Source of the DNA: Algoriphagus machipongonensis
GTDB taxonomy: Bacteria > Bacteroidota > Bacteroidia > Cytophagales > Cyclobacteriaceae
NCBI RefSeq assembly: GCF_000166275.1
Contig: NZ_CM001023.1
Location: 2,979,001-3,043,000 of the forward strand
Direction of reading: 5' to 3'
DNA length: 64,000 nt
Of the stretch, positions 5,247-64,000 are shown piece after piece. A program made the position numbers and the translations under genes. Position 1 is the stretch's first letter; each line of letters opens with the position of its first letter. The notes beneath the pieces are model-generated. The model worked only from the letters and a program-made list of their open reading frames with translations, was not told where the DNA came from and did no database searches.

Positions 5247-7154
5247 CTAATTACTTTCAAAGGAATAACGGAACGGGGCAGTCGGTAGCCCTAAGGCATT
5301 CACTAAATTGACTTCAGGGTTATCCGCCCAGGCATATCGGATTTCAACAGGATTTGTTACATCAAGGTTTAAAACCACTTCATTGACACCAGAAATTTCC
5401 CCTGAGACTTCTTGAAATCTACCGGATGATGTCTCTACAATAAAGCCTTTGACTGAATTGTCTCCATCTGAGATTTCCAATCCACCAGCTACATCTTCAA
5501 AAGTCACAACAATTTTACCTTCCTGAATACTTGCACTTTTAAAGACAGGTCCATTAGCCACAATATCCTCGTTATAGGCAATTTTTTTAGCTTGTAGCCA
5601 AAGTCTTTCACCTACATCTTTTTTGTTTTTGGGATGAATGTCTCCTGCTTCTCCAATATCAATAATTACTGCCATACCCGTATTTGGCAAACTCAACGTT
5701 TTTGATTGAGCTTCTCTTAAATAGGCCCAATCACTCTCAGGCTGAGGGGATTTACGCTCCATGAAATTTGCTAACTGAACAAATAGGAAAGGAATATCAC
5801 CAAGTCCCCACTTTGACCTCCAATTAGTAATCATTGCTGAAAAAAGCTCTTCATACTCATCTGCTCTCCCTGCATTGCTTTCTCCTTGATACCATATTAC
5901 TCCTTTGATGGGATAAGAAACAAGCGGGTTAATCATAGAATTATACATCATTCCAGGCTTCCAATTTACTTTTTCTACCTTTGGAAGCTGAGGTTCAACA
6001 ATATTTGTTGAATATGCCCAATTGCCTTCTAGAGATATTTTATTGCTGCCTTGAAGAATATACATTTCTCCTGATTCTCCTACTCGAGGCTGATTGTTCC
6101 ACGTATTTATTGCTCTTATCGTCAAAACATTCGTTCCTTCATTCAACCATGAAGCTGGAATATCAATCTCTGGAACCGGAACTCCCCAATCTTTGTAATG
6201 TAAAAGATTTCCATTGAGATAGATGTAAGCCATTTGATCAATGTTTGACAGGTGAAGAACTGCTTCCTGTGCTGTGGCTAGTTTAAATCCCTTCCGTATC
6301 CAAGCAATATCCTGCATGGGATTTGATTTGGGGAGGTTAATGGTCCCCCAACCCGAATCATCATAATCAATCGATGCAACTTGCAAAGCTTGCAAAGAGT
6401 CTGGTCCTGTGACTAATTTATTTCTCAGGTCACTATTCTTCTCATTTTCCAATACTTTTTTCTCCCACTCTTCAGCTTGGTCAATTATCTCCTTTGCTTC
6501 AGCACTATAACTTGCATCCATGGAAGCTAAAACTGATGCATCTGTCCAACCTTCAGCAGGTGTTCCTCCCCAATTGGATTCAATGATTCCCACCGGCACA
6601 TCCTTTTCCAAATGATTCCTTTTAGCAAAAAACCAGGCTACTGCAGAAAAATCCGGTAAGTTTTCTTTATTGGCTACTTTCCATTCTCCTCCCTGAAGAT
6701 CCTCTTGAGGCATTGCACTATAACTGTGGGGAACTTTAAAAAATCTAATTTCTGGATTTCCACCTTCCGAAAATTCCTTTTCTGCTCCTATAACATCGGA
6801 TTTCAAAGCCCATTCCATGTTGGATTGACCTCCAGCCAGCCAAACATCTCCAATGTAAACATCTTCAATTTCTTGATTATTGACTTGAAGGACAAAAGGG
6901 CCTCCTGCCTTTGCCTCAGGTAGCTTAAGACTCCAAGTGCTGTCAATTGCTACCTCGGTACTCCCCATAAGCCCAGCAATAGAAACCCTTACTTTTTTAT
7001 TAGGAATTCCTTTTCCCCAAACATGAACTTTTTGATTCCGTTGGAGGACCATGCCATTTTCAAAAATTATAGGTAGCGTAACTTCTGAATCAAATTTATC
7101 TGTATTACATGCAAATAAGCTACAGCAAAAAAGGATGATGAGATATCGTTTCAT
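5247..7154 (-). CDS. Sialate O-acetylesterase-like carbohydrate esterase (SASA domain), lipoprotein
   Basis: 635 residues. Signal peptide with lipobox LFAC (Cys16). An N-terminal beta domain (FENGMVLQRNQKVHVWGKG) precedes the esterase core: block WLAGGQSNMEW with nucleophile Ser111, block GVIWYQGESNAGR, and the C-terminal GDIHP with the catalytic Asp/His pair near residue 513. A beta-sandwich (galactose-binding-like) domain is inserted at about 240-380. This is the architecture of SIAE-type enzymes, which in Bacteroidota deacetylate sialic acid or, frequently, acetylated xylan and other glycans. The nearby xylose operon makes a role in xylan deacetylation possible but unproved. Located on the cell surface or periplasmic side as a lipoprotein. 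Confidence 0.88.
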   Translation of the reverse strand: MKRYLIILFCCSLFACNTDKFDSEVTLPIIFENGMVLQRNQKVHVWGKGIPNKKVRVSIAGLMGSTEVAIDSTWSLKLPEAKAGGPFVLQVNNQEIEDVYIGDVWLAGGQSNMEWALKSDVIGAEKEFSEGGNPEIRFFKVPHSYSAMPQEDLQGGEWKVANKENLPDFSAVAWFFAKRNHLEKDVPVGIIESNWGGTPAEGWTDASVLASMDASYSAEAKEIIDQAEEWEKKVLENEKNSDLRNKLVTGPDSLQALQVASIDYDDSGWGTINLPKSNPMQDIAWIRKGFKLATAQEAVLHLSNIDQMAYIYLNGNLLHYKDWGVPVPEIDIPASWLNEGTNVLTIRAINTWNNQPRVGESGEMYILQGSNKISLEGNWAYSTNIVEPQLPKVEKVNWKPGMMYNSMINPLVSYPIKGVIWYQGESNAGRADEYEELFSAMITNWRSKWGLGDIPFLFVQLANFMERKSPQPESDWAYLREAQSKTLSLPNTGMAVIIDIGEAGDIHPKNKKDVGERLWLQAKKIAYNEDIVANGPVFKSASIQEGKIVVTFEDVAGGLEISDGDNSVKGFIVETSSGRFQEVSGEISGVNEVVLNLDVTNPVEIRYAWADNPEVNLVNALGLPTAPFRYSFESN

Positions 7155-7238
7155 GGGATTTTGGGATTGACAATAGAAAAATGCTTAAAAAAAACGAAAG
7201 ACCATATTCTATCAAGAGATTTATAATGCTTTCATTAA

Positions 7239-7736
7239 TTAATTTACTTGATTTTCAATTGCTTCAATACCATTTACCAAATAAGCAAATGCCGCATTCC
7301 AATTGATTGCAATTTCATTGGAAGCATAACTCTTAGTATCATCTACATAAGACATGTCAGGTACCTTGCTTGGATATTCTAAATTATCTTGCTGCCCTGG
7401 GTTGGGACCTCCAACCAGAAATCCAGGGATAGGAGGCAATTCAGGCCTATATGCTACCAGTCAATGATGAGGGTGTAAAGGGGTATTTGCCCCAAAGCCG
7501 GTAACATAAGAATAACCAGTTGCATTTCTTCCCAATAAATAATCAAGAATCCCTTTTGATACATCCAAATAAGCTTTGTTATGACTTATTAAGAAGGCTT
7601 TTATCAAAAGTATCCCCTGATTTGAAGCCACAGCATTACTTCCCCAAACAAAATCTCTTGGTGAACTCCCCATGGTTATTTGGAAGGCACTTGACTTTTG
7701 GTTTTGATAATAGCCATTTGCAGCTTCTTCTAATAC
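7239..7736 (-). pseudogene. Decayed C-terminal fragment of a glycoside hydrolase family 9 endoglucanase
   Basis: One continuous frame of about 165 codons reads like the end of a GH9 catalytic domain: GYYQNQKSSAFQIT, DFVWGSNAVASNQG, LLGRNATGYSYVTGFG, HPHH, then PIPGFLVGGPNPGQQD, SYASNEIAINWNAA and YLVNGIEAIE. A TGA at 7461-7463 interrupts it exactly where GH9 enzymes have HPHHR, so a CGA to TGA change is the simple explanation. Upstream the frame hits another stop at 7737-7739. The first two thirds of the enzyme are absent: the xylA terminator begins only about 30 bases further on. The order therefore fits a deletion that removed most of a secreted cellulase/xyloglucanase followed by a nonsense mutation. 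Not expected to make an active enzyme. Confidence 0.88.
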
Positions 7737-7761
7737 TCAAGATTTTGAGTATATGAAAACC

Positions 7762-7792
7762 AAAAAACCCGATGGAGAATATCCACCGGGTT
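7762..7792 (-). terminator. Rho-independent terminator of the xylose operon
   Basis: Arms 7766-7776 and 7782-7792 (AACCCGATGGA / TCCACCGGGTT) form an 11-bp stem. The single A/C mismatch on the + strand becomes a G-U pair in minus-strand RNA, which together with the T run after the stem shows that it serves the minus-strand xylA gene. Confidence 0.88.
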
Positions 7793-7819
7793 GATTCAGC
7801 TGATTAAAGCTTTATTGTT

Positions 7820-9133
7820 TTAGATAAATCTATTCAAAAGATTTTCGAAGTATTCTTGCTTACCACTGGTCATGGCTGGCTCACCATTTTCAGCTGCATA
7901 ATTTCTTAAGTCTTCCAAAGTAAGGGCTCCATTTTCGAAGTCCTTTCCTTTTCCACTATCATAACTTGCATACCTAGCTTTTCTTCTTTCTAGGTAATCA
8001 GATTTCTCCAACATATCCTGAGCAATCAACATACTTCTTGCAAAAGCATCCATACTACCGATATGCGCCAAGAATAAATCATCTTGATCTGTTGAGTTTC
8101 TTCTGATTTTTGCGTCAAAGTTTACTCCTCCACCTTGAAGTCCTCCAGAAGTCAACATAACAAGCATGGACTCTGTCAATTCTTGTAGATTAATGGCAAA
8201 CTGATCCGTATCCCAACCATTTTGGTAATCGCCTCTATTGGCATCAATACTTCCTAGCATTCCTGCGTCAGCAGCAACTTGAAGTTCGTGCTGGAAAGTA
8301 TGTCCTGCAAGAGTAGCATGGTTTACTTCAATATTGATTTTGAAATCCTTATCAAGACCATATTGTCTTAGGAAGCCAATTACAGTAGCAGAATCATAAT
8401 CGTACTGGTGTTTAGTTGGTTCCATTGGCTTAGGCTCAATAAAGAAAGTTCCTTTGAAACCATTCTTTCTAGCATAGTCTTTTGCCATTGTAAGGAACTT
8501 AGCCAAATGCTCAGTCTCACGCTTCATATCTGTATTCAGCAAAGACATATATCCTTCACGTCCACCCCAGAACACATAATTTTCACCATCAAGGGCGATA
8601 GTTGCATCAAGGGCGTTTTTCACCTGCGTTCCAGCATAAGCCAAAACATCGAAGTCCGGGTTGGTAGAAGCACCGTTCATATATCTAGGATTACTAAATA
8701 CATTCGCAGTTCCCCAAAGCAATTTCACACCGGTTTCTGCCTGCTTTTGCTTGGCATATTCCGTGATAATCTGCATTCTTTTTTCGTACTCGGCGACAGT
8801 AGGACCTTCGTCGATTAGATCCACATCATGAAAGCAGTAATATGGGGCACCAATCTTAGTGATAAATTCAAAAGCTGCGTCCATCTTGTCCTTGGCTCTT
8901 TGAATTGGGTCAGGGTTGGCATCCCAAGGGTGAACAATAGTTCCGGGTCCGAATGGGTCATTGCCTGTTCCACAGAATGAATGCCAATAAGCGATAGAGA
9001 ACTTAAAGTGCTCTTTCATGGTCTTACCGGCAATCACACGGTTTTCATCATAATAGCGAAACGCCATTGGGTTATCACTATCCTTACCTTCAAAAGGAAT
9101 TTTCTCAATTGAAGGAAAAAACAATTTTGACAT
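7820..9133 (-). CDS. xylA: Xylose isomerase
   Basis: 437 residues, the usual length for the class II enzyme of Bacteroidota. It converts D-xylose to D-xylulose in the cytosol using two divalent metal ions on a TIM barrel. Visible signatures are [11 protein letters not shown] with the catalytic His102 and Asp105, [25 protein letters not shown] (metal-binding Glu and substrate Lys), [10 protein letters not shown] and the metal-binding DANRGD motif. It is last in the operon symporter-xylB-xylA, 29 bases after xylB, and followed by a strong terminator. The operon supplies xylulose 5-phosphate to the pentose phosphate pathway. No XylR-like regulator is present in the window. Confidence 0.98.
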
Positions 9134-9162
9134 GTTAATATAATTTAGGTTACTACAATAGG

Positions 9163-10665
9163 TTATACTTTAAACTTCTGGATTTTTTCCAACTGGCTTT
9201 TCCAATGGGAATAAACCTCTTCATACTGCTCGAAAAAGTTTTCATTTGGCTCCACAGTCTCTAACAACTCCAATCCTTCAAAAGCCTCACTTTCACTCTT
9301 ATACAAGCCTATACCAATTCCTGCCCCTCTTGCTGCTCCCTGAGCTCCGTCAGTATCATACAGCTCCAATACTACTTTATTCATGTGAACAAAGGTTTTT
9401 CTAAATATGGGGCTCAAAAACATATTGGCTTTACCAGCTTTTACTGTTTTCAAGTCCATTCCCATATCCTGCATGATTCTGAAACCAAAAGTCAGGGCGG
9501 ATACAATCCCTTCCTGAGCGGCTCTAATCATATGTTTTTTATCATGCTTTAGTAAATCCAAGCCCATCATATGAGCTCCAACTTGTTTATTCTGCATGAT
9601 TCTTTCGGCTCCATTACCAAAAGGTATGAAGGATAATCCATCTGCTCCAATTGGAGCTGAACTACCCAAGTTATTCATTTCATCATACCCAATTTTCGCG
9701 GCACCCATTAATTTTTTTATCCAGCTATTGAGGATTCCTGTGCCATTGATACAAAGTAGAACTCCATAAGAAGGATTTTCTACGGTATGATTAACATGAA
9801 CAAAAGTATTTACTCTCGAAAGTGGATCATACAAAGGAGTATCACAAACCCCATATACTGTACCTGAAGTACCTGCTGTGGTAGCTAACTCACCTGGCTT
9901 CAATACCTCCAAAGAAAAGGCATTATTGGGTTGGTCTCCTGCTCGGTAAGAGACAGGAACACCTGTTTCAATACCTGTTGCCTCTGAAGCTTCCTTGGTA
10001 ACTGTCCCCTGTAAGGAATACGAAGGTAATGCTTTTGGCAACCATTCCTTAGAAATTTGGTAGGTATCTAATACTTTTTGACTTACACCGTTTTCTTTGA
10101 AATCCCAAAAAATCCCTTCGGATAGACCTGTTTCTGATGTTAATATTTCTCCTGTTAGCTTCATGGCGATATAATCACCGGGAAGCATAATTTTATGGAT
10201 TTTAGCAGCTAACTCTGGCTCATTTTCAATCACCCACCTTAGCTTTGAAGCAGTAAAGTTCCCAGGAGAATTTAATAAATGAGGTAGGCAGTAATCCTCT
10301 CCCATTTCTTTAAAAGCTTTTTCTCCAATCCCTACAGCTCTACTATCACACCAAATAATCGATGGTCTTAAGACATTTTGGTCCTTATCAACCAAAACCA
10401 ATCCATGCATTTGGTAAGCAATCCCTATTCCTTTAAGCTCACCTGCTTTCACAGATGATTTTGAAAGCACATACTTACTAGCCTGTTTAATATATTTCCA
10501 CCAGGTTTCTGGGTTTTGTTCAGCCCAACCAGCTTCTGGTGCTTGAATCTCCATTTCTTCCTCTGGAAAAGCTTTGCTACAAATAGCTTTTCCCGAATCT
10601 GCGTCTAAAAGGGACGCCTTTATTGAAGAACTTCCTATATCAAGCCCTAACAGTAATTGTCTCAT
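9163..10665 (-). CDS. xylB: Xylulokinase
   Basis: 500 residues of the FGGY carbohydrate kinase family. It phosphorylates D-xylulose to D-xylulose 5-phosphate with ATP. The N-terminus [17 protein letters not shown] is the first phosphate-binding loop of the actin-like ATPase fold; [27 protein letters not shown] and [11 protein letters not shown] (catalytic Asp) are typical of xylulokinases, and [12 protein letters not shown] is the second-domain phosphate loop. It sits 17 bases after the symporter gene and 29 bases before xylA, so all three are co-transcribed. Length and motifs are complete; nothing unusual seen. Confidence 0.97.
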
Positions 10666-10682
10666 GAATTAGTTAATTGAAT

Positions 10683-12326
10683 TTACCAGAAAACGATATA
10701 TAATGCAGCTGTAATACCTGCAATCAAAACAGCACCAATTTTAAAGGTAGTACTGGTTTTGAATAGCTCTTTATTGATTTCGATGCTATTTGGATGATCT
10801 TTCCCTTTACCTTCTACTAAACTGATGATAATCATCAGTGCAGCTAAAATTAAGAATACCACACCCATTCTATCAATGAATGGTAAATTTGGTAAGCCTA
10901 CTTTCAACACAAATGACAAAGGAATACTCAATGCCGCAGCTGTTAAAGCAGCGTTTGAGGTAGTTTTTTTCCAGAAAACTCCGAAGAAGAAAATCGCAAA
11001 AACTCCTGGGCTAATAAAGCCTGTATATTCCTGGATAAATTGGAATGCCTGATCCAATTGACCTAAAGCAGGCGCAACTATCGCGGCAACTAGGAAAGCT
11101 ACAAAAGCGGTAATTCTACCTACTTTCACTTGTTTAGCCTCAGATGCTCCTTTACTGAAATACTTTTGGTAAATATCCATCGTAAAGATGGTAGAAGTAC
11201 TATTTGCCATAGATGCCAAAGAAGAAACAATCGCTGCTGTCAATGCTGCAAAAGCAAGACCTTTCAAACCAACGGGTAATAACTGAAGCAGCGTAGGATA
11301 CGCTCTATCAGATTTTACCAAGTTGGTAGCTGGATCTTTCATGGACTCTATGAAACTCACATCAATTCCATTTTCAACAATAACGAATGCTGCAATTCCA
11401 GGAATCACAACAATCAAAGGCATTAATAACTTAAGGAAACCTGCGAAAATCATCCCTTTTTGGGCTTCATCCAGATTTTTAGCCGCCAAGGCTCTTTGGG
11501 TAATATATTGATTGAATCCCCAATAGCTCAAGTTGGTGATCCACATACCTCCTACTAACACAGAGATGCCAGGTAAATCAAGGTATGCATCTCTCACTCC
11601 TCCAGCTCCATCAGGAATCATCATTTCACCCTGTGACAATATCATAGAAAAATGACCTGGAACTTCTCTTCTCAATAAACTAAGTCCTTCCCAAGCATCA
11701 CCAGAACCAACCATTTGAAGGGCGATGTAAGTCGTAGCAAGTCCACCCGCTACAAGGAAAACTACTTGAACCACGTCAGTCCATGCAACGGCTTTTAGCC
11801 CGCCATAAATAGAATAAATCATGGCAAAAGTTGCCAAACCTAGAATCCCATAAATCATGGGTACATTTAGGATAGTATTTAAACTTAAAGCTCCTAAGTA
11901 TAAAACAGATGTAAGGTTTACAAATACATACAACAAAAGCCAGAATACCGCCATGGTGGTTCTTACTCGGGTATCATAACGATCTAATAAGAATCCCGGC
12001 ATGGTATAAATTCCTTTCTTGATATAGACAGGCAAAAAGAAAATCGCAACTACCAAAAGTGTCACGGCTGCCATCCATTCGTAGGTCGAAATTGCTAATC
12101 CTAACGCAAATCCGGAACCAGACATGCCGATAAATTGCTCAGCAGAAATATTGGAAGCAATTAAAGAGGCTCCAACTGCCCACCAGGGAAGTGCTTTGGA
12201 TGCAAGAAAGTAATCAGAAGAGTTTTTTACGTGCCCTTTCTTTTCTCTGGATACAAAAATGCCCATACCGACGATGAGCAAACAATATCCAATGAAAACT
12301 ATCAGATCTAACGGTTCTAAAAGCAT
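10683..12326 (-). CDS. Sodium:solute symporter, probable Na+/xylose transporter
   Basis: 547 residues with about 14 predicted membrane helices, a member of the SSS family related to Na+/glucose and Na+/galactose transporters. Diagnostic segments are SSDYFLASKALPWWAVGASLIASNISAEQ at the first helices, GGLKAVAWTDVVQ, and SSLASMANSTSTIFTMDIYQ near the Na+ site. It is the first gene of a three-gene unit with xylB (17 bases downstream) and xylA, which strongly suggests that xylose is the substrate. It acts in the inner membrane. No clear promoter motif was found in the 119 bases upstream; a short AT-rich inverted repeat there is too weak to call an operator. Confidence 0.92.
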   Translation of the reverse strand: MLLEPLDLIVFIGYCLLIVGMGIFVSREKKGHVKNSSDYFLASKALPWWAVGASLIASNISAEQFIGMSGSGFALGLAISTYEWMAAVTLLVVAIFFLPVYIKKGIYTMPGFLLDRYDTRVRTTMAVFWLLLYVFVNLTSVLYLGALSLNTILNVPMIYGILGLATFAMIYSIYGGLKAVAWTDVVQVVFLVAGGLATTYIALQMVGSGDAWEGLSLLRREVPGHFSMILSQGEMMIPDGAGGVRDAYLDLPGISVLVGGMWITNLSYWGFNQYITQRALAAKNLDEAQKGMIFAGFLKLLMPLIVVIPGIAAFVIVENGIDVSFIESMKDPATNLVKSDRAYPTLLQLLPVGLKGLAFAALTAAIVSSLASMANSTSTIFTMDIYQKYFSKGASEAKQVKVGRITAFVAFLVAAIVAPALGQLDQAFQFIQEYTGFISPGVFAIFFFGVFWKKTTSNAALTAAALSIPLSFVLKVGLPNLPFIDRMGVVFLILAALMIIISLVEGKGKDHPNSIEINKELFKTSTTFKIGAVLIAGITAALYIVFW

Positions 12327-50747: not shown

Positions 50748-52682
50748 ATGGCGAAGAATAAAATTAGCGAGAAACAACTAGGCTTAAATACCAAAATCAG
50801 CAGACGAGACTTTGTAAACTCCACTTTGATGGGAGTTGGAGGATCTTTGTTGAGTGCCGCAGCACCAATTTCTTTGCTACCCGGATGTGGACCAAAAGCA
50901 GCACCAGCAATAGAAAAAGATGCATGGACTGGATTTGGTGCCGTAGGTGATTATGCCAATTCTTCTGGTAACACAAAAGCTGTCATGGAAGCAGCACATA
51001 AAATCCGAGATGGCTTTTACCAAGAAAAACAGTTGGAAACAAATTCATCAGAAGAGCTTTTTGATGTCATCATTGTGGGTGGTGGAATGAGTGGATTGGG
51101 AGCAGCTCATCATTTCAAAAAGAACGCTGACTCCTCTCAAAAATGCCTTTTGTTAGAGAACCATCCCATTTACGGAGGTGAAGCCAAAAGAAACGAATTT
51201 CTAGTAAATGGGCAATTGCTGATGGGACCTCAGGGTTCCAATGACTTTGGAGTCCCTGCCAAAGGATCAGGAAATTTGACTGACCAACTTTTTGAGGAAT
51301 TGAAAATCCCAAGAACGTTTGAATTCCAAGATTGGTCATCAGACCTTACTCCTCTGAATTTCGGTTTGGATAACTATGCCCATATGACCGGAGTAGCTGA
51401 ATCCAAAGTGGATATCGGTTACTTTTTCAAAAATGGGGAGGGTATCGAAAAGCCCACTTGGTTCAATAACATTTGGCGAGATGACTTAGCAAATGCTCCC
51501 TATTCTGAAAACCTGAAACAAGAATTACTTAAATGGCGGTATTTCACTCCTGAAAATAAAGGATTGGAGTTTAGCAAGATGCTAGACAGCATGACTTATA
51601 AAGAATACCTAGAAAATGAATTGAAGTTTTCTTCCAGAGTCACCGAGTACATTGATCCTGTGATCGGATTGATTAATGGCGCAGGATCTGATGCGATTTC
51701 TGCTTTTGCAGCCTCTCAAATTGGCATGCCTGCTACAGGAAGGTCAAGAGGAAAGGATGCCTCACTCCCACTTTCATTTCCTGGTGGCAACACTACCTTT
51801 TCAAGATTCATGGTCAAAGATCTCATTCCAGGTTCGATTGGAGGCAAACATACTTTTGAAGATATCACCAATCAAAAAGTAAACTTCTCCTCTCTTGATC
51901 AAGAAGGAAACCCAATAAAGTTAAGGATGAACGCGACTGTGATTTCGGTTCAGCATGAAGGAGATCCAGAAACTGCAGAAAGGGTAAAAGTGATCTATGA
52001 AAAAGGAGGTAAACTCTTTGAAGTGAAAGCAAAATCAGTCATCATGGCTTCCGGTGGTTGGGTAAATAAACATATCATCAAAGATTTAACACCAGAAATC
52101 CAACAAGCATATTCGGAATTCACCTATGCACCAGCCCTTATTGCCAATGTCGCCTTAACCAACTGGCGATTTATGTACAAGTTGGGAATTACGGCTGCAC
52201 AATGGTTTGGGGATGGCTTTGGCTTTTCTTGTAATATCCGTAAGACCATGAATATCGGTTCTTATGCCCCACCTTTACACCCAGACAAACCAGCTGTTTT
52301 AACATTTTATTTTGGAGCCCATACTCCCGGTTTACCTCTAGCTCAGCAAAATATTCAAGCGAGAATGAAAGTGTTTGGTACTTCCTTCTTTGACTATGAA
52401 AAGCAATTGAGAACTCAACTATTAGAACAATTTGGAGCCTCTGGGTTTGACCCAGAAAAAGACATTGCAGGAATTACTTTGAACAGGTGGGGACATGCCA
52501 GAATTACCCAAGGGCCTGGATTCTATTTTGGTAAAGACGGAAAAGAATCTCCCAGAGAGGCTGTTCAGAAAGGTTATGGGAGAATTATTTTTGGACATTC
52601 TGAATTGAATGGGCATCAAAACTGGATTGGTGGAGTAACCCAAGGTTACGAAGCCTCAGAAAAAGCATTGGCTTTGACATAA
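50748..52682 (+). CDS. Tat-exported FAD/NAD(P)-dependent oxidoreductase (flavin amine oxidoreductase-like)
   Basis: 644 residues. Twin-arginine signal at ISRRDFVNS (Arg19-Arg20), then a hydrophobic stretch and LLPGC, so it may be a Tat lipoprotein (Cys47). The FAD-binding Rossmann motif is VGGGMSGLGAAHHF at about 110-123, followed by YGGEAKRNEF and GPQGSNDFGVP. A second dinucleotide segment with SVIMASGGWVNKH closes the flavin fold. It resembles the spermidine-dehydrogenase-like/NAD(P)-binding proteins of Bacteroidota, but a precise substrate is not evident. It folds in the cytosol with FAD and acts in the periplasm. Single gene with a shared terminator. Confidence 0.82.
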   Translation: MAKNKISEKQLGLNTKISRRDFVNSTLMGVGGSLLSAAAPISLLPGCGPKAAPAIEKDAWTGFGAVGDYANSSGNTKAVMEAAHKIRDGFYQEKQLETNSSEELFDVIIVGGGMSGLGAAHHFKKNADSSQKCLLLENHPIYGGEAKRNEFLVNGQLLMGPQGSNDFGVPAKGSGNLTDQLFEELKIPRTFEFQDWSSDLTPLNFGLDNYAHMTGVAESKVDIGYFFKNGEGIEKPTWFNNIWRDDLANAPYSENLKQELLKWRYFTPENKGLEFSKMLDSMTYKEYLENELKFSSRVTEYIDPVIGLINGAGSDAISAFAASQIGMPATGRSRGKDASLPLSFPGGNTTFSRFMVKDLIPGSIGGKHTFEDITNQKVNFSSLDQEGNPIKLRMNATVISVQHEGDPETAERVKVIYEKGGKLFEVKAKSVIMASGGWVNKHIIKDLTPEIQQAYSEFTYAPALIANVALTNWRFMYKLGITAAQWFGDGFGFSCNIRKTMNIGSYAPPLHPDKPAVLTFYFGAHTPGLPLAQQNIQARMKVFGTSFFDYEKQLRTQLLEQFGASGFDPEKDIAGITLNRWGHARITQGPGFYFGKDGKESPREAVQKGYGRIIFGHSELNGHQNWIGGVTQGYEASEKALALT

Positions 52683-56488: not shown

Positions 56489-56701
56489 ATGAAATTCAAA
56501 CTTTGGAACCTATTGGTTCTGTTGGTCGTCATTTTGACCGCAGTAACTTATTTATTTCTATTCCAAGAAAACCAAGAAGACCCCAAAATTGGAGCAGTAC
56601 CCTACATTTTTTGGACAGGATTTATCGTCACAGTGGTCATTGTATTTGCCACATTCTTAGGTTCAAAGTTTTTTCCATTTGAAGACCCCAAAAAATCATG
56701 A
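56489..56701 (+). CDS. Small two-helix membrane protein, symporter partner
   Basis: 70 residues from ATG 56489. Two membrane helices: NLLVLLVVILTAVTYLFLF and AVPYIFWTGFIVTVVIVFATFLG. The stop overlaps the start of the symporter gene as ATGA, so the two are translationally coupled. This layout recalls small subunits next to sodium:solute symporters such as the DUF997 protein of PanF-type systems, but I cannot claim the family. First gene of the GH88 operon. Confidence 0.72.
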   Translation: MKFKLWNLLVLLVVILTAVTYLFLFQENQEDPKIGAVPYIFWTGFIVTVVIVFATFLGSKFFPFEDPKKS

Positions 56702-58095
56702 TAGGATGGCTATTATTCTTCTTTGGGATCTTTCTGGCAATGCTGGGATACGCATCTTATCGATCTTATAGAAAAGACAGAACTTCAGACGACTTTATCT
56801 TTGCAGGCTCCAATATTGGGACCATTTTAGGTTTTCTAACCTTCTCTGCAGCACTTTTCAGTGCATTTACCTTTATGGGAATGCCGGATTTCTTCCGAAC
56901 TCATGGAGTTGGAGCCTGGATCTTCCTTGCCCTTTCCGATGCCTTAATGGTATTCTTCCTGATTTGGTTTGGTTATGCACTACGAAAAAGAGCGAGTATT
57001 CAGGGGTACAAAGGTGTGGCAGGCTTAGTGAAAGTTTGCTATGGAAATTCATTCGCTGGCTATTTGGTATTTACCAGTGCCTTTCTTTTTCTTATTCCTT
57101 ACGTAGCAATTCAGATTCGGGGAATTTCCATCTTCTTAGATGCCGCTTTCCCGGGGATGCTCCCCTATTGGTCATGGTCAGCTTTGCTGGTTTTTATCAT
57201 GCTGATCTATTCTGAGATCGGTGGATTGAAAGCCATTGTTTATAGTGATGCTATTCAAGGCGTGATTATGCTCGCAGTCATTTGGATCATCGGTTTAACC
57301 TGCCTAAAAATGGCAGGAGGATTGGAAGATGGTATCGCAAAAGTGGCAGAAGCTAATCAGGATTTACTTTCACTGCCGGGTCCAAAAGGACTTTTTAGTA
57401 GTCCATTCTTAATTGCATCTGCGATTGCTATTATTTTAATTCCGGTATCGCAACCTCAATTTACCACTCGATTGGTAGTCATGAAAAGCTTAAAGTCAGT
57501 CCATAGAATGGCTTATGCCGTTGGGATCTTCGCTATTCTAGTGATTTTACCCACTGCTTTTATTGGCCTATATGGAGCGATCCAATACCCTGATGCAAGC
57601 ACTGCTGATTTCTTGAGTCAGGCCTTACTCAATGATCAGGCAGTACCTGTGGCTGCTTTAGCAGTGGTTGGGTTATTTGCAGCCTGTTTATCTACTACTA
57701 ACGCTCAAATCTTTGCTCTAGGAACAGAGTTGAGAAGTCTTCTTGGTGGAAGTGATAAATCAAACATGCGGGTTACCAAAATCTCAATAATGGTATTTTC
57801 AATGATCGTTTTGGTTTTCTCTACTTACATGAGTGATCAATTGGTTTTGTTGGCGCGAGTTAGTTTTGCAGGAACTTCGATGATTGCCCCTGTAGTACTT
57901 GGAGCAGTTATTTTCTCAAAACCACCAAAAAGCCTAATCCCATTATCTGCCATCGCATTGGTCACATTCATCTTATCTATCGTGGGGGTCATCCCTGATA
58001 AGATCAGTGGTCTTCCACTGGATTTCATCATGTATATCATACTTTTTGTTTGTACAGCAGTCATCATGCTTACACACCCAAAATCAAATAAATAA
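56698..58095 (+). CDS. Sodium:solute symporter family transporter of the GH88 operon
   Basis: 465 residues with about 13 membrane helices. SSS family signature: DDFIFAGSNIGTILGFLTFSAALFSAFTFMG, then YSEIGGLKAIVYSDAIQG (the GGLKA-YSD loop) and AVVGLFAACLSTTNAQIFALGTEL at the Na+ site. It is not closely alike to the xylose symporter upstream. It overlaps the small membrane protein gene (ATGA) and precedes GH88 by 3 bases, so it probably takes up the saccharide that GH88 cleaves. Inner membrane. Confidence 0.92.
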   Translation: MIGWLLFFFGIFLAMLGYASYRSYRKDRTSDDFIFAGSNIGTILGFLTFSAALFSAFTFMGMPDFFRTHGVGAWIFLALSDALMVFFLIWFGYALRKRASIQGYKGVAGLVKVCYGNSFAGYLVFTSAFLFLIPYVAIQIRGISIFLDAAFPGMLPYWSWSALLVFIMLIYSEIGGLKAIVYSDAIQGVIMLAVIWIIGLTCLKMAGGLEDGIAKVAEANQDLLSLPGPKGLFSSPFLIASAIAIILIPVSQPQFTTRLVVMKSLKSVHRMAYAVGIFAILVILPTAFIGLYGAIQYPDASTADFLSQALLNDQAVPVAALAVVGLFAACLSTTNAQIFALGTELRSLLGGSDKSNMRVTKISIMVFSMIVLVFSTYMSDQLVLLARVSFAGTSMIAPVVLGAVIFSKPPKSLIPLSAIALVTFILSIVGVIPDKISGLPLDFIMYIILFVCTAVIMLTHPKSNK

Positions 58096-58098
58096 TTT

Positions 58099-59481
58099 AT
58101 GAAGCTTGATTCTAACATCACTATTGAAGAGCTAAAAACCCCATTAGAACGTTTCTGGGCTCTTTCGGGAGAAAAAATAGAAGAAATTGAAAAATCCTTT
58201 GATCCGGCAAATGGAGCTCCGGTATTCACTGAAAAAGGAAAGTACGTCACCCGAGGTTGGACAGAGTGGACACAAGGCTTCCAATATGGTTCTGCTTTAC
58301 TACAATTTGATACCACTGGAGATGAAAAATTTCTAAAAATAGGTAGAGAAAACACCTTAAATAAAATGGCTCCACATCTGACTCACACGGGTGTTCACGA
58401 TCATGGATTCAATAATGTAAGCACTTATGGCAACTTACTCAGGCTGATGAAAGAGGGTAAGATTGAAAACAATGAGTGGGAAAAGAATTTCTATGAATTG
58501 GCTTTAAAAGCGAGTGGAGCTGTTCAAGCCATGCGCTGGACCAACATTCAGGGCGGAGGCTATATTTACTCTTTCAACGGTCCTCATTCCTTATTCGTAG
58601 ACACCATTCGTTCCTGTCGAGCCCTAGTTGTTTCACATGCTTTAGGACATGTTTTACAGGGAGAAAATGACAAGCGAATTTCCTTAATTCAGCGTGCTAT
58701 ACAACATATTTTAAGCACAGTCAGGTATTCTATTTATTATGGAAAAGGTAGAGACACTTATGATATTTCCGGTAGAACAGCCCATGAAATCATCTTCAAC
58801 ACGAATGATGGAAATTATCGGTGCCCAAATTCACAACAAGGGTATACAGGTTTTAGCACTTGGACTCGAGGACTTGCTTGGGCCATATGTGGCTTAGGGG
58901 AAACTCTGGAAATATTGGATCAAATTGATGAAAGCGATTATGCGATTTTGGTTTCCAAAAAAGCATTGATCGAAGAGCTAATTACTGCAGCAAAAGCAAC
59001 GGCAGAGTTTTATATTGCCAATACCCCTACCGATGGAATCCCTTACTGGGATACAGGTGCACCCGGTTTGGTGAATATGGGAGATTATCTAAATCGGGAA
59101 TCAGACCCTTTTAATGCTTTTGAACCTGTAGATAGCTCTGCAGCCTGTATTGCAGCGCAAGGCCTTTTGAGAATCAGTAATTTCCTAAAGGATAAAGAAC
59201 CAGAAAATGCTGAGAAATATAATAAAGCAGGGATACTAGTTGCAAAGTCGCTATTCTCTGAACCCTATATTTCTACCGATAAAACACATCAGGGATTGAT
59301 TCTTCATAGTATTTACCATCAACCTAATGGGTGGGACTACCGACCGGAATCAACGAAAGCTCCCTACGGAGAATCTTCCATGTGGGGAGATTACCATGCC
59401 AGAGAACTGGCACTATTACTTCAAAGATCCTTGAACAAGGAATCTTATTATAGCTTTTTCAATTGTATCAAAACCCTATGA
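58099..59481 (+). CDS. Glycoside hydrolase family 88, unsaturated glucuronyl hydrolase
   Basis: 460 residues, no signal peptide, so cytosolic. (alpha/alpha)6-barrel enzyme. Catalytic aspartates are Asp101 in [12 protein letters not shown] and Asp168 in [14 protein letters not shown], 67 apart as in known GH88 enzymes (about 61). [11 protein letters not shown] and [11 protein letters not shown] are further family blocks, and [10 protein letters not shown] closes the barrel. GH88 hydrates the 4,5 double bond of unsaturated uronic acids left by polysaccharide lyases, releasing the sugar and 5-keto-4-deoxyuronate. Sits 3 bases after the symporter and overlaps the OYE gene start by 4 bases. Confidence 0.93.
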
Positions 59482-60923
59482 GCAGCGGAAAATATAAACC
59501 AGAATATCCGAGAGTAGCTAAATTAAAAACTGCGGAAGACCTGAGGGCATATTTAAAAGAAGAAAATATCCCCATGGATTTTGATGAGTCTCTTGATTCA
59601 GGAAAAGATTCAGCTTTTGCCAAGTCTTACAAGACTCGAGTAGGAAACGAAATTGGAAATTCATTCTGTATCCTTCCCATGGAAGGTTGGGACGGAACAA
59701 CCGATGGAAAACCTTCCGATTTAACCAAAAGGAGATGGAAGAACTTTGCCATCAGTGGAGCCAAATTACTATGGGGTTGTGAAGCTGTAGCTGTTCGACA
59801 TGAAGGTAGAGCAAATCCTAACCAATTGCTGATGAATGAGGCCAACCTATCGGAATTTGAAGGGCTTTATCAGATGGTGGAAAAAGAACACCGTGAAGCT
59901 TTTGGCAATACCAACGATTTATTAACAGGCCTTCAGTTGACGCATTCGGGTAGGTTTTGTAAACCCAACAGCAAGACAAAAATGGAGCCTAAGATCCTTT
60001 ATTCTCACCCTGTGTTGAATAAGAAATTTGGACTGGCAGAAGACTACCCTATCATGAGCGATTCAGAGATATCTGAACTGATTGATGATTATGTGATTGC
60101 TTCAGTACGAGCTCAAAAGGCGGGATTCAAGTTTGTAGACATCAAGCATTGCCACGGATATTTAGGACATGAATTCCTAAGTGCCTACGATAGAGAAGGT
60201 AAATTCGGGAAATCCATTGAAAACAGAACTCGGTTTCTTAGAGAAATAGTGGCCGGAATTCGTTCTGAAGCCCCTGGCTTAGAGATAGGTGTCAGGATGA
60301 GTATTTTTGATTGGTCTCCATTTCAAGAAGGGCCAGATGGAAAAGGCATCCCATCCATGGAGGGGAATTATAAATATGCCTTTGGAGGTGATTCTTCTGG
60401 AACTCATGAAAATATGGAAGAGTCCTTTGAGTTTCTTGAGGAGCTTAAAAGTTTGGATATAGAATTACTGTGTACCACTGCAGGAAGCCCCTATTATAAC
60501 CCTCACATTCAACGACCCGCTCTATTCCCACCATCTGATGGTTATAACCCTCCAGAAGAACCACTTCATGGGGTAGCAAGGCAAATTCAGGCAACAGCAA
60601 AGATTAAAAAAGCTTTCCCCGAGTTTTATGTGGTTGGATCCGCCTACTCCTACCTTCAGGAGTGGCTACCAAATGTAGGCCAACATGTCCTGAAAAGTGG
60701 TATGGCTGACTCGATCGGATTGGGAAGGATGGTATTGAGTTATCCAGATCTACCTGCAGATGTTTTGGCTGGCAATGGAATGAAAAGACCAAAGATTTGT
60801 AGAACGTTTTCAGATTGCACCACCGCACCTAGAAATGGAATCATATCGGGATGCTATCCCTTAGATCCTTTTTACAAGAAAATGGAAGAACACGATCAAT
60901 TAAAAGCAGCTAAAAACAAATAA
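59478..60923 (+). CDS. NADH:flavin oxidoreductase of the Old Yellow Enzyme family
   Basis: 481 residues from ATG 59478, overlapping the GH88 stop as ATGA. FMN-binding TIM barrel: [59 protein letters not shown] and the C-terminal phosphate-binding region VGSAYSYLQ...[11 protein letters not shown]. It lacks the additional C-terminal domain of 2,4-dienoyl-CoA reductases. OYEs reduce activated C=C bonds, so it may reduce an unsaturated or enolic intermediate of the GH88 pathway; that role is inference. Between GH88 and the SDR gene, clearly part of the operon. Confidence 0.9.
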
Positions 60924-60930
60924 TAAATAC

Positions 60931-61701
60931 ATGAAACCAGTAGCATTAATCACAGGAGGATCGAGAGGAATCGGCTTTGGCATAGCCAAAAAACTGGCAG
61001 AAATAGGTTATAATTTAGGAATCAATGGAGTTCGGCCTGAAGAGAATGCCAAAGATCATATAGATGAATTGAAAGCTATCGGAGCAGAGGTTATCTACCT
61101 TCAGGGAAATATTGCTGAGAAAACTGACCGAGATTCAATCATTCAAGGTTTGAAAGATCAATTTGGAAAAATAGATGTATTGGTCAACAATGCCGGAGTG
61201 GCTCCAAGAGTTCGATGTGATGTGTTGGAAGTGACAGAAGATGATTACGATCACCTGATGGACATCAACGAAAAAGGGACATTTTTCATTACCCAAGCCA
61301 TCGCCCAATGGATGTTGGATTTAAAGGCAGCGAATCCCGCGGCTCAGATTTCCATTATCAATATTACCTCAGTTTCGGCAGAATTAGCTTCTCCAAAAAG
61401 AGCAGCCTATTGCATGTCAAAGGCCAGTTTGTCTATGCTATCAAAAACAATGGCGGTAAGATTGGCTCCACATGGAATTCCAGTATATGAAATCCGCCCT
61501 GGCTTCATCGATACAGATATGATAGAAAAAGTCCGGGAAACTTATTTGAATTTAGTTCAAGAAGGAGCTACTCTAGAGCCTCGAATAGGCAAGCCAGAGG
61601 ATATTGGGAAAGTGGTAGCCAGCTTAGTCAGTGGTGAGCTCCCCTACAGTACGGGGCAAGTGATCAATGTTGATGGAGGTTTAACCATTGGAAGAATGTA
61701 A
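60931..61701 (+). CDS. Short-chain dehydrogenase/reductase (3-oxoacyl-ACP reductase-like)
   Basis: 256 residues, NAD(P)-binding Rossmann fold: ALITGGSRGIGFGIAKKL (TGxxxGxG), VLVNNAGVA, and the catalytic YCMSK within KRAAYCMSKASLSML, with Ser in ITSVSAELA. The C-terminal INVDGGLTIGRM is typical of classical SDRs. It comes 7 bases after the OYE gene and is the last gene of the GH88 operon. It would oxidise or reduce a hydroxy/keto group of the sugar-acid intermediate, similar in role to KduD in pectin pathways (inference). Confidence 0.92.
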   Translation: MKPVALITGGSRGIGFGIAKKLAEIGYNLGINGVRPEENAKDHIDELKAIGAEVIYLQGNIAEKTDRDSIIQGLKDQFGKIDVLVNNAGVAPRVRCDVLEVTEDDYDHLMDINEKGTFFITQAIAQWMLDLKAANPAAQISIINITSVSAELASPKRAAYCMSKASLSMLSKTMAVRLAPHGIPVYEIRPGFIDTDMIEKVRETYLNLVQEGATLEPRIGKPEDIGKVVASLVSGELPYSTGQVINVDGGLTIGRM

Positions 61702-61722
61702 AAGGGATTTAGTCCCTTTTTT
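61700..61722. terminator. Terminator overlapping both stop codons of convergent genes
   Basis: AAAAGGGA / TCCCTTTT with loop TTTAG. The SDR stop codon (61699-61701) and the stop of the minus gene (61709-61711) lie within or beside the stem. The gene ends are only 7 bp apart. The T-run works on the + strand; on the minus strand the run is also present. Confidence 0.85.
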
Positions 61723-64000
61723 CATTTAAATCAATTCGGAAAAGCTTGGTAAACGGATAACCCTGATCAGTCATTCCTTCGATCAACAAATCGTATTCTT
61801 GAATTCCATCAACTGGCGCAAAAGAGAAAGTAAACAATCCTTTATCGGTTTTTGCTTTTGGATTCCAGAAGACTGTAGGCTTTTGAGCCGAACCCTGTGA
61901 TTCTAAAACTTTTTGGAAGTCCAATTCTTTAGAAAACCCGCGAACCTTAAACTGCTGAAAACCAGTTGAATTAAACTGACTTTCCGACTGATCATCAAAT
62001 CTCCCACCTTTTTTGGTATTAAACATGATTACTCCAGCAAATCCTGCCAAACCAAAAATATGGGTATTAGTGGTGTAAATTGAAATTGATTCGACTTCGT
62101 TAGTCATATATCTATTTACAACCTCCTGAGCACTTTCTCCTGCCAAATAGAAATACCGTTGTCCATCAATGATCAACAATGGCTCCCCAACATTGAGACC
62201 ATAATTGTAATTGCCAAGCTTTCCATTCCCAAATTGCATCCCTATTACAGACCACAAAGGTTGGCCAGCCCAATTGTCTAAATCTTCAGAAGTCACTTTC
62301 CTATCAGGCTCCCCATACCCGTAATTATTGTCCTCCAAACGCACTAAAACTTTATCCTCTTTTACAAATTCCTCCAATTCAATATAAGATCCTGAAAAAT
62401 CATAGCGAGTCAATTGACCAGTGGATTTTTTAGTTTGGTACTCATATTTCGGGAATGAACCCCTAAATGTCGGAACCGAATTGTCAATTAAACTAACCGC
62501 TCCATATGGTCTGTTTTTTTCATCCATCGCAGCAATCGAAATTGTTACAGAATCTGTAAAATTTAAACCTGTGGCTCGGAAATATCCTGAAGAATCGGTC
62601 TCCACAATTCCATAATCTTCCAAATCTCCCTGCACAATCGTAATAGGATTGATATAAGGAAACCGCTTTTTAGTACGTTCAAAACTGCCCTGAATCGTAA
62701 TGCCATATTCGATTGGAAATTCTTCTATTAATTCAAAATCTGATTTTGCTTTGTCATCCAACCATTCCAATCCTGACTCTAAGGATTTCCTTTGGCTAAA
62801 AAACCCTACCAACGTGGGGTCGGTAATTGAAATCGTAAAATCAGTTTCAACATATTCGTCTGTTTGATCCAAGAAACTTAATTCGATTTCTACCACTTTC
62901 CTCCCTGAATCCAATTTTTGATTATGACTTAAATTGATGGTCAAATCATCAAAAAACTCTTGCTCATTTAATTCTTGACTGACCAAAACCTGATCCTTTT
63001 CCAAAATCGGCAAAGGAACCAAGGTCATATCCCGATCAGGAAAATTTCGCATCCAATTTGTGTAAGACCGGATGATATAATCAGCTGGCTTCAAAGTATC
63101 TGATAAAACAAAGCCACCGGAAACTGCTCCTTCAGAAATGTAATAGGACTCTCTCTGGACAATTTCATACGAAGGGTTTAAAACCTCCATATAGAGCACT
63201 CTACTCAAAGAATCCTGCATCAACGTATTGTGATAAAGCATTTTAGCATGAAACCAAATAGGTTCTCCAGGGTAGTAATAAGATTTATTGGTGGTAATCC
63301 ATGGCTTTTCTCGAAGGTTGTTGAATTTGGCTAATTCAGATTCTACACTATCCACTTCCGCTAAATTGGACTCGAAATTTTCTGCAGGCTTAAAATCATA
63401 GGGCAAAAACCTTCCTAGCCTCTGTCTTCCCATGTAGCCCGAAAGTTCCACTTGGGTGGGGTCAATAACGATTCCATTTCTGTCTACATCAAAGTAGCCT
63501 CTGGGTGCTGTGATCCAACTGATAGGATGGTAATAATCCGAATAGTATTCGTTTCTCCAGGATTTCTTCTGATAATGAATCTCGTAGTCGTCAGGAAATA
63601 TCACTCTGAAATTTCCGTTTCGTAGAGGAATCCTCCGAATGGAATCCTGGGAGACAAAATCTACTGACTTCCCTAGTTCTTCCTGTAATACATTTGTCCT
63701 CAGTTCATTAAAAAAATGCTGATTTTTCCTATAGATAATAAAGCCTTCTTTCTCCACCTCTCTCACCAAAAGGGATCTGAAAAAGTGTCTTGAAGAACCC
63801 AAATAAGAACTTTCCTTTAAATCATCCTTTGACTTTTGAATCAGGGAATCCTTAGAGTTGATTTCTTTAAAATAAGCCAGTCCATAATAAAGTGACTTGC
63901 CTTTATAAAATCTATAATCCTGTAAATAATACTCGATTTCAAACCCCAAAGCTTTATTTTCAACAATCAGAGGTTGATCGGCTGTGGCATGTATGTAATT
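61709..64000 (-). CDS. Large surface protein with plug and MG2-like domains (carboxypeptidase-regulatory-like), 5' end outside the window
   Basis: 764 codons are visible; the frame stays open up to the right edge (NYIHATADQPLIVENKALG), so the start lies beyond the window. The N-terminal visible part looks like the end of a CarboxypepD_reg-like domain. NKSYYYPGEPIWFHAKMLYHN at about 234 is an MG2 (macroglobulin-like) start, followed by beta domains, and VESISIYTTNTHIFGLAGFAGVIMFNTKKG resembles a TonB plug. Such proteins are common at the Bacteroidota outer membrane and lack a barrel; role unknown. Converges on the SDR gene with a shared hairpin. Confidence 0.85.
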   Translation of the reverse strand, partial: NYIHATADQPLIVENKALGFEIEYYLQDYRFYKGKSLYYGLAYFKEINSKDSLIQKSKDDLKESSYLGSSRHFFRSLLVREVEKEGFIIYRKNQHFFNELRTNVLQEELGKSVDFVSQDSIRRIPLRNGNFRVIFPDDYEIHYQKKSWRNEYYSDYYHPISWITAPRGYFDVDRNGIVIDPTQVELSGYMGRQRLGRFLPYDFKPAENFESNLAEVDSVESELAKFNNLREKPWITTNKSYYYPGEPIWFHAKMLYHNTLMQDSLSRVLYMEVLNPSYEIVQRESYYISEGAVSGGFVLSDTLKPADYIIRSYTNWMRNFPDRDMTLVPLPILEKDQVLVSQELNEQEFFDDLTINLSHNQKLDSGRKVVEIELSFLDQTDEYVETDFTISITDPTLVGFFSQRKSLESGLEWLDDKAKSDFELIEEFPIEYGITIQGSFERTKKRFPYINPITIVQGDLEDYGIVETDSSGYFRATGLNFTDSVTISIAAMDEKNRPYGAVSLIDNSVPTFRGSFPKYEYQTKKSTGQLTRYDFSGSYIELEEFVKEDKVLVRLEDNNYGYGEPDRKVTSEDLDNWAGQPLWSVIGMQFGNGKLGNYNYGLNVGEPLLIIDGQRYFYLAGESAQEVVNRYMTNEVESISIYTTNTHIFGLAGFAGVIMFNTKKGGRFDDQSESQFNSTGFQQFKVRGFSKELDFQKVLESQGSAQKPTVFWNPKAKTDKGLFTFSFAPVDGIQEYDLLIEGMTDQGYPFTKLFRIDLNEKRD

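Follow-up and report, generated by a model that had tools for sequence, protein, structure and literature searches.

Breakdown of 5-keto-4-deoxyuronate (DHU) has been described as a two-step sequence, with KduI or DhuI acting first and KduD or DhuD second; clusters of dhuD and dhuI are, in the accessible portion of the source, reported only in Bacillota and Actinomycetota (PMC12838403). The available part of the main text of the same article contains none of the words flavin, Gfo and old yellow. A recent addition to uronide breakdown is the ulvan oligosaccharide dehydratase P29_PDnc, which makes a substrate for GH105 (PMC8511951, available in part), and papers on the Old Yellow Enzymes (OYEs) call the physiological roles of these flavoproteins unresolved, at least in their abstracts. 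Among the literature matches listed, no paper carries both a GH88-type and an OYE-type term, which tests absence from print weakly, and none in the collection searched combines flavin oxidoreductase, polysaccharide utilization and uronic acid. The system described here lies in a stretch of 64,000 nucleotides (the window, G000:C1:2979001-3043000) within the 4.79-Mb, one-contig genome of Algoriphagus machipongonensis. Five genes on the same strand (56489-61701), here called A to E, encode a small membrane-type protein, a sodium:solute symporter, a GH88-like protein, an OYE-like flavoprotein and a short-chain dehydrogenase/reductase (SDR). A and B overlap by ATGA, as do C and D, and gaps of 3 and 7 bases separate B from C and D from E. 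These gene coordinates confirm the five-gene operon with ATGA overlaps or gaps of 7 bases or less proposed by an earlier reading of the DNA made without database searches (the sequence-only reading). C, D and E form a conserved cassette in which the slot of D may be filled by other genes, and C is uncoupled from KduI.

Among 98 genomes of the same family, 31 gave a match to C at 55% identity or more and were scored as having an orthologue (55-76% identity). Weaker matches defined the ordinary-GH88 set of 23 genomes, which shares six members with the C set. D orthologues are present in 12 of the 31 C genomes and in none of the other 67 (p=1.7e-7), a set that includes a 60-residue fragment at the end of a contig (G032) and gives p=7.6e-7 without it. 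The D family has at least 575 relatives in a scan of contigs, of which the best 80 were kept, a choice that favours close relatives. By their record titles, these 80 named loci comprise 49 from Bacteroidota and 31 from other groups. In the Bacteroidota loci C lies immediately upstream of D in 46 of the 49 and E immediately downstream in 44, and all three are contiguous, meaning neighbours in the mechanical gene call, in 42; at L071 a fragment of C was missed by clustering, and L086 starts at D. The closest of the 80 are from Algoriphagus (89% identity in A. pacificus) and keep the order A-B-C-D-E, the conserved five-gene set being best known from water-living bacteria of the Algoriphagus type. 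E is present in 25 of 30 fetched C loci. In a sample of 296 genomes from across the phylum, C was found in 26 and D (>60%) in five, each time adjoining C by coordinates. A relative of D at 42-45% identity was found in three more genomes, two of which also carry C, on another contig.

Linkage is also seen in three Chloroflexota loci (L127, L131 and L135), which have a GH88 of the ordinary type (27-29% identical to C) in the order GH88-E-D. In the tree of D these fall outside the Bacteroidota clade (support 97/100), as does a Pirellulaceae locus with a C-type gene (L125), and the GH88 label changes at least seven times on well-supported branches, by gains or losses. When the neighbourhood search for GH88, OYE and SDR proposed by the sequence-only reading was run, the linkage recurred in Bacteroidota, with C present in 12 of the 12 D genomes of the family as well as in the contiguous loci; the OYE does not stand beside GH88 by chance, and the three genes are a conserved cassette. 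That the genes are neighbours by chance, or that unrelated genes were passively carried along, is extremely improbable given the co-occurrence, the contiguity, the mutual exclusion within the slot of D, and the recurrence of the linkage in a different order in Chloroflexota.

The slot between C and E is filled in two ways in the family. Among the 31 C genomes, D occurs in 12 and a pair of genes, for an AP_endonuc_2 TIM barrel (f5) and a GFO/IDH/MocA protein (f4), occurs in 15, with no overlap between the two sets (p=1.6e-5). In all 15 the pair is placed between C and E, although at two loci (L036 and L047) other short open reading frames (ORFs) lie between f4/f5 and C. Twenty of the 27 C matches of the phylum sample were fetched as further loci, five D-type places and G340 and G364 being left out; E is present in 14, GFO in ten, the TIM barrel in four and a cupin adjoining GFO in five, and six are without E, GFO and TIM. 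This pattern of exchange in family and phylum points to a common core of C and E together with D, with GFO and the TIM barrel, or with GFO and the cupin. The OYE, a member of the set in the sequence-only reading, therefore occurs with C in 12 genomes but is not obligatory, the GFO and TIM pair standing instead in 15 of the 31. Transporters near C or D vary as well (SSF, DASS and MFS), a range that suits a small anion.

KduI, taken as a match to NF002091 over its cut-off, is present in 38 of the 98 family genomes. Every one of the 23 ordinary-GH88 genomes has it (p=1.1e-12), unlike the C genomes, which carry it only at the background rate (12 of 31; the genomes that lack C have it in 26 of 67; p=1). 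It is found in 5 of the 12 D genomes, in 5 of the 15 with GFO and TIM, and in 6 of 25 C genomes without ordinary GH88, against 32 of 73 (p=0.098). C-type GH88 is therefore statistically uncoupled from KduI in the family sample, and from this an undescribed downstream route is predicted. G082, a 100% complete genome from the genus of the window, has C, D and E and no KduI match.

The sequence-only reading noted that none of the standard enzymes is encoded here. This is true of the operon, where Pfam and NCBIfam scans found no KduI among the five genes, but not of the genome. At about 4.164-4.168 Mb (L175:7712-11904), KduI, a gluconate-5-dehydrogenase/KduD-like SDR, a LacI-type regulator and tagaturonate reductase lie on one strand; the opposite strand has a galacturonidase-like gene that scores below the NCBIfam cut-offs. 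Elsewhere there are an Eda-like gene over the Pfam cut-off and a KDG-kinase-like gene below the NCBIfam cut-offs. The standard route is thus still available in this organism, and the operon could be that of an ordinary unsaturated glucuronyl hydrolase (UGL), its acid passing to the KduI/KduD and KDG enzymes of the genome while D and E act on the second sugar set free by C or on an unrelated by-product. The occurrence of D and E relatives together, away from GH88, in Subdoligranulum agrees with such an arrangement. The lack of KduI over the cut-off in 19 of the 31 C genomes and 7 of the 12 D genomes, set against its presence in all those with ordinary GH88, argues otherwise and makes this an unlikely explanation, if one to be kept in mind.

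C scores 25.8 bits against PF07470 (GH88), just under the Pfam curated cut-off of 26.6, and is for this reason called GH88-like. It is predicted to have the (alpha/alpha)6 fold of GH88. In a structure alignment of 27 rows (the window protein and 26 chosen from 63 C sequences or trimmed forms) the residues mapped to UGL W42, H87, D88, D149, H193, Q211, W219, R221 and W225, numbered along the UGL chain, are kept in all 27; these comprise the catalytic Asp pair, D101 and D168 in C, and seven others. We take the roles of these residues to be those of UGL, in which R221 presumably contacts the carboxylate.

Retention of the residue mapped to R221 bears on a different, 3-keto-glycoside chemistry. 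Here GFO/IDH/MocA-type oxidation at C3 and elimination would give an enolone, C would hydrate some other enol ether, and D would reduce the enolone or replace the enolone step. An enolone would be a typical substrate for an OYE, and genes of GFO/IDH/MocA, TIM-barrel, DUF1080 (PF06439), DUF6807 and cytochrome type are found repeatedly around C or D in related loci, one neighbour matching the BT_2158_fam glycoside 3-dehydrogenase model with 173.9 bits, far under the cut-off of 750. However, there is no GFO/IDH/MocA gene among the five operon genes, and sugar-dehydrogenase models give the GFO protein that replaces D no more than 71 bits, far short of the cut-offs. The five neighbouring GFO proteins scanned with NCBIfam at other loci (including L082, L042, L134 and L189) likewise all score under the cut-offs. 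With the mapped arginine kept in C, 3-keto-glycoside chemistry appears improbable.

D matches PF00724 (Old Yellow Enzyme) with 76.9 bits (cut-off 27). The OYE motif His-x-x-His/Asn is replaced by Lys-His-Cys-His in all 39 rows of a structure alignment (the window and 38 fetched loci) and, judged by motif, at every one of the 80 loci. Lys223 thus stands in all rows for the first His, which is kept in 19 of 19 ordinary OYEs from genomes of the same family, one of them from the genome of the window itself. D is on this account classed as OYE-like, and its sequence indicates a distinct family with the OYE fold that is not a canonical OYE. Q153, R273, G416 and R417, which we take to be the Gln, Arg and Gly-Arg of the FMN site, and Y228, presumably at the Tyr donor position, are present in all 39 rows. 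The lysine extends to farther relatives, as DIKQCHTYL in three at 42-45% identity and as DIKSCHRYL in the Subdoligranulum relative (34%). All 80 loci also have three Cys (Cx5Cx11C) in D, and the Subdoligranulum relative has four in that region; with three only, D does not have the four-Cys Fe-S motif that we take to belong to FadH and enoate reductases. A second D subgroup (L206-L208, 42-45% identity) has nearby a protein of 736-758 residues, a TIM barrel where scanned (L206 and L208), and at L206 a GFO/IDH/MocA gene lies near D.

The exchange of His for Lys would fit a carboxylate or a 2-oxo acid. The sequence-only reading suggested an aryl or methylated uronide whose C=C bond is reduced by D; this is not directly supported, as the first His is replaced by Lys and the contexts of D would point rather to a 2-oxo-3-deoxy sugar acid. 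Similarly, the target of D might be the aglycone, or else a methyl or aryl substituent of a uronide, with D working as a reductase or a demethylase-like flavoenzyme. OYE-fold relatives do include amine dehydrogenases, and at one Chloroflexota locus D is directly followed by a gene for a methyltetrahydrofolate:corrinoid methyltransferase-like domain and then a glyoxalase domain (L131:9756-11042). Such a gene was seen at 1 of the 80 loci, among annotated neighbours (most neighbours are unannotated), and a role of this kind is very improbable.

DHDPS, IlvD/EDD and enolase/mandelate-racemase-type families, whose products or substrates are 2-oxo-3-deoxy sugar acids, as the expected GH88 product would be, are found near D and its substitutes away from C. 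D directly follows a gene called n8 in nine loci (Planctomycetota, Chloroflexota or unassigned). n8 (L112:8951-9991, L141:3017-4072 and seven others) is a DHDPS-like family with a conserved GAKHSS motif; it gave no Pfam match in the one member scanned and is distantly related to a rhizobial DHDPS-family protein (PDB 4dnh; E 3e-4; 24% identity; hhalign probability 95%). In the gut Firmicute Subdoligranulum variabile (OY725857, L205), relatives of D and E stand in a sugar-acid-like cluster, within a stretch that carries no annotated features, with the D relative near an IlvD/EDD dehydratase, a TIM barrel, a Zn alcohol dehydrogenase and a PRK12745 SDR. Close relatives of the substitutes f4 and f5 occur in Proteobacteria (57% and 50% identity; solved relatives 3oqb and 3ju2) and lie no more than 2.8 kb apart in 13 of 13 plasmid records common to both match lists, these being the records shared by the best 25 of 65 and the best 25 of 127 matches, with several near-identical strains. 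Six annotated proteobacterial regions were opened. The TIM gene is near a DHDPS-family protein in five, with GFO too in four; the same five have an enolase/mandelate-racemase gene in three and a tripartite tricarboxylate transporter in two, and the sixth (Pseudomonas silvicola, L216) has none of these features. Clusters of GFO/IDH/MocA, DHDPS-family and TIM-barrel genes are seen on the proteobacterial plasmids L212, L214, L215 and L217, the solved relatives (3oqb and 3ju2, with 4dnh for the DHDPS-like part) having no named function. D and E are placed after C because these neighbour families are sugar-acid enzymes, and the GH88-free contexts of D would fit 2-oxo-3-deoxy sugar acids.

The operon may therefore be viewed as a candidate cassette for the catabolism, in the cytosol, of a 4,5-unsaturated uronide that is small and anionic. 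A and B would import this uronide, and C would hydrate its C4=C5 enol ether in the manner of GH88 to give a sugar and a 5-keto-4-deoxyuronate-type acid which, counted from the carboxylate, is a 2-oxo-3-deoxy acid. The acid would be processed by E, a putative carbonyl reductase of the SDR superfamily of KduD, and not by KduI (isomerase) and then KduD (reductase). The second redox partner of E would be D here and, in related operons, GFO/IDH/MocA with a TIM-barrel isomerase or GFO with a cupin. It might be guessed that D binds the carboxylate or the 2-oxo group of the acid through Lys223 and His226 over FMN, and that it reduces a C=C bond conjugated to the 2-oxo acid (the enol or 3-ene form); that its step is a true C=C reduction is doubtful. 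The favoured reading, a non-KduI route for the released acid by way of E and interchangeable redox partners including D, we rate at about even, and we give the same even odds to an action of D and E on the GH88 product along such a route. More tentative is the proposal of a third, KduI/DhuI-independent route, in which the KxCHxYL OYE-fold family works with a PRK12745 SDR on a 2-oxo-3-deoxy sugar acid and D can be swapped with the GFO/IDH/MocA and isomerase pair. The unusual uronide pathway of the sequence-only reading is a fair one, since the cassette is conserved and C is uncoupled from KduI, qualified by the standard genes elsewhere in the genome and by the replaceable OYE.

Several observations weigh against a dedicated non-KduI route. 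KduI is present in those 12 of 31 C genomes, and its absence from the others is a result for the KduI profile, no search for DhuI or other KduI substitutes having been made. As the genome of the window holds KduI, KduD-like SDR, KDG-kinase-like and Eda-like genes, the product of C could use the standard enzymes. The same genome has few lyases of the families searched (none for PF00544 or PF05426, one for PF07940). Neither D nor the GFO and TIM pair occurs in four of the 31 C genomes (G012, G049, G071 and G093), and five of the 30 C loci that were fetched have no E, one of the five lying at the edge of a contig. Only 4 of the 31 non-Bacteroidota D loci have a C-type or GH88 gene in the stretch, so D does not serve GH88 products exclusively; an E-type gene is likewise present in 4 of 31. 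Finally, with the first His of the OYE pair missing, ordinary ene-reduction by D is not assured.

If C marks uronide use, predictions made from KduI only would overlook this use in 19 of the 31 C genomes of the family sample. D represents a sequence-defined OYE-like family with a strong metabolic context and, if the third route is true, sugar-acid catabolism would give this OYE-type enzyme a defined physiological role.

Table 1. Genes and other features of the operon, in window coordinates.
Feature	Position	Strand	Remarks
A: 70-aa membrane-type protein, partner of symporter B	56489..56701	+	alternative TTG start 56453
B: SSF sodium:solute symporter	56698..58095	+	PF00474 57.1 bits, above cut-off 22.8
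C: divergent GH88-like (unsaturated glucuronyl hydrolase-type) protein	58099..59481	+	
D: OYE-fold flavoprotein, KxCHxYL replacing HxxH/NxY	59478..60923	+	ATG 59478; in-frame TTG 59463
E: short-chain dehydrogenase/reductase, PRK12745 type	60931..61701	+	NF009386 323.7 bits, above cut-off 250
Terminator-like stem-loop overlapping the end of E	61700..61720	+	pattern match only

An A-like ORF adjoins B in 14 of the 30 fetched same-family C loci (14 A and 15 B counted). The best NCBIfam match of B is PanF, at 80 bits and under the cut-off of 328, and E does not pass the KduD model TIGR01832 (136.2 bits, cut-off 338.85). Converging on E is a minus-strand ORF of 746 residues (window 61709-63949) with no Pfam match at E 1e-5. 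Elsewhere in the window, the minus strand at 5247-12326 holds a possible second sugar cluster with a SASA-type esterase, an FGGY kinase and another SSF symporter, and positions 50748-52682 encode a 644-residue FAD-dependent oxidoreductase whose N-terminus resembles a twin-arginine signal and whose 25 best NCBIfam models are all below cut-off.

C differs from the GH88 unsaturated glucuronyl hydrolases (1vd5, 3wiw and 2zzr) in being 83 residues longer than 1vd5, and it forms its own clade, with 55-76% identity among the 31 family genomes and at most 39% local identity to other GH88 matches. In comparison with flavoenzymes of COG1902 (3kru, YqjM 1z41, 2-naphthoyl-CoA reductase 6qkr and FadH 1ps9), D has KxCHxYL in place of HxxH/NxY, three Cys and about 45 extra N-terminal residues. 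The proteobacterial plasmid clusters of GFO, DHDPS and TIM genes resemble the cassette in carrying orthologues of the two substitutes of D (57% and 50%) but differ in that no GH88 is annotated in the six regions opened; rhizobial loci are termed uncharacterised or putative in the accessible part of PMC12542648. As regards the P29_PDnc pathway, no operon gene was identified as such a dehydratase, no sequence comparison having been made. The operon shares with the route of UGL and KduI/KduD (or DhuI/DhuD) a GH88-type hydrolase, an SDR and DHU as the expected product class (PMC12838403, available in part). It differs from that route in being without an isomerase of the KduI/DhuI type and in having for E a PRK12745 protein and not KduD, and the flavoprotein D, or GFO and the TIM barrel in relatives, is found instead.

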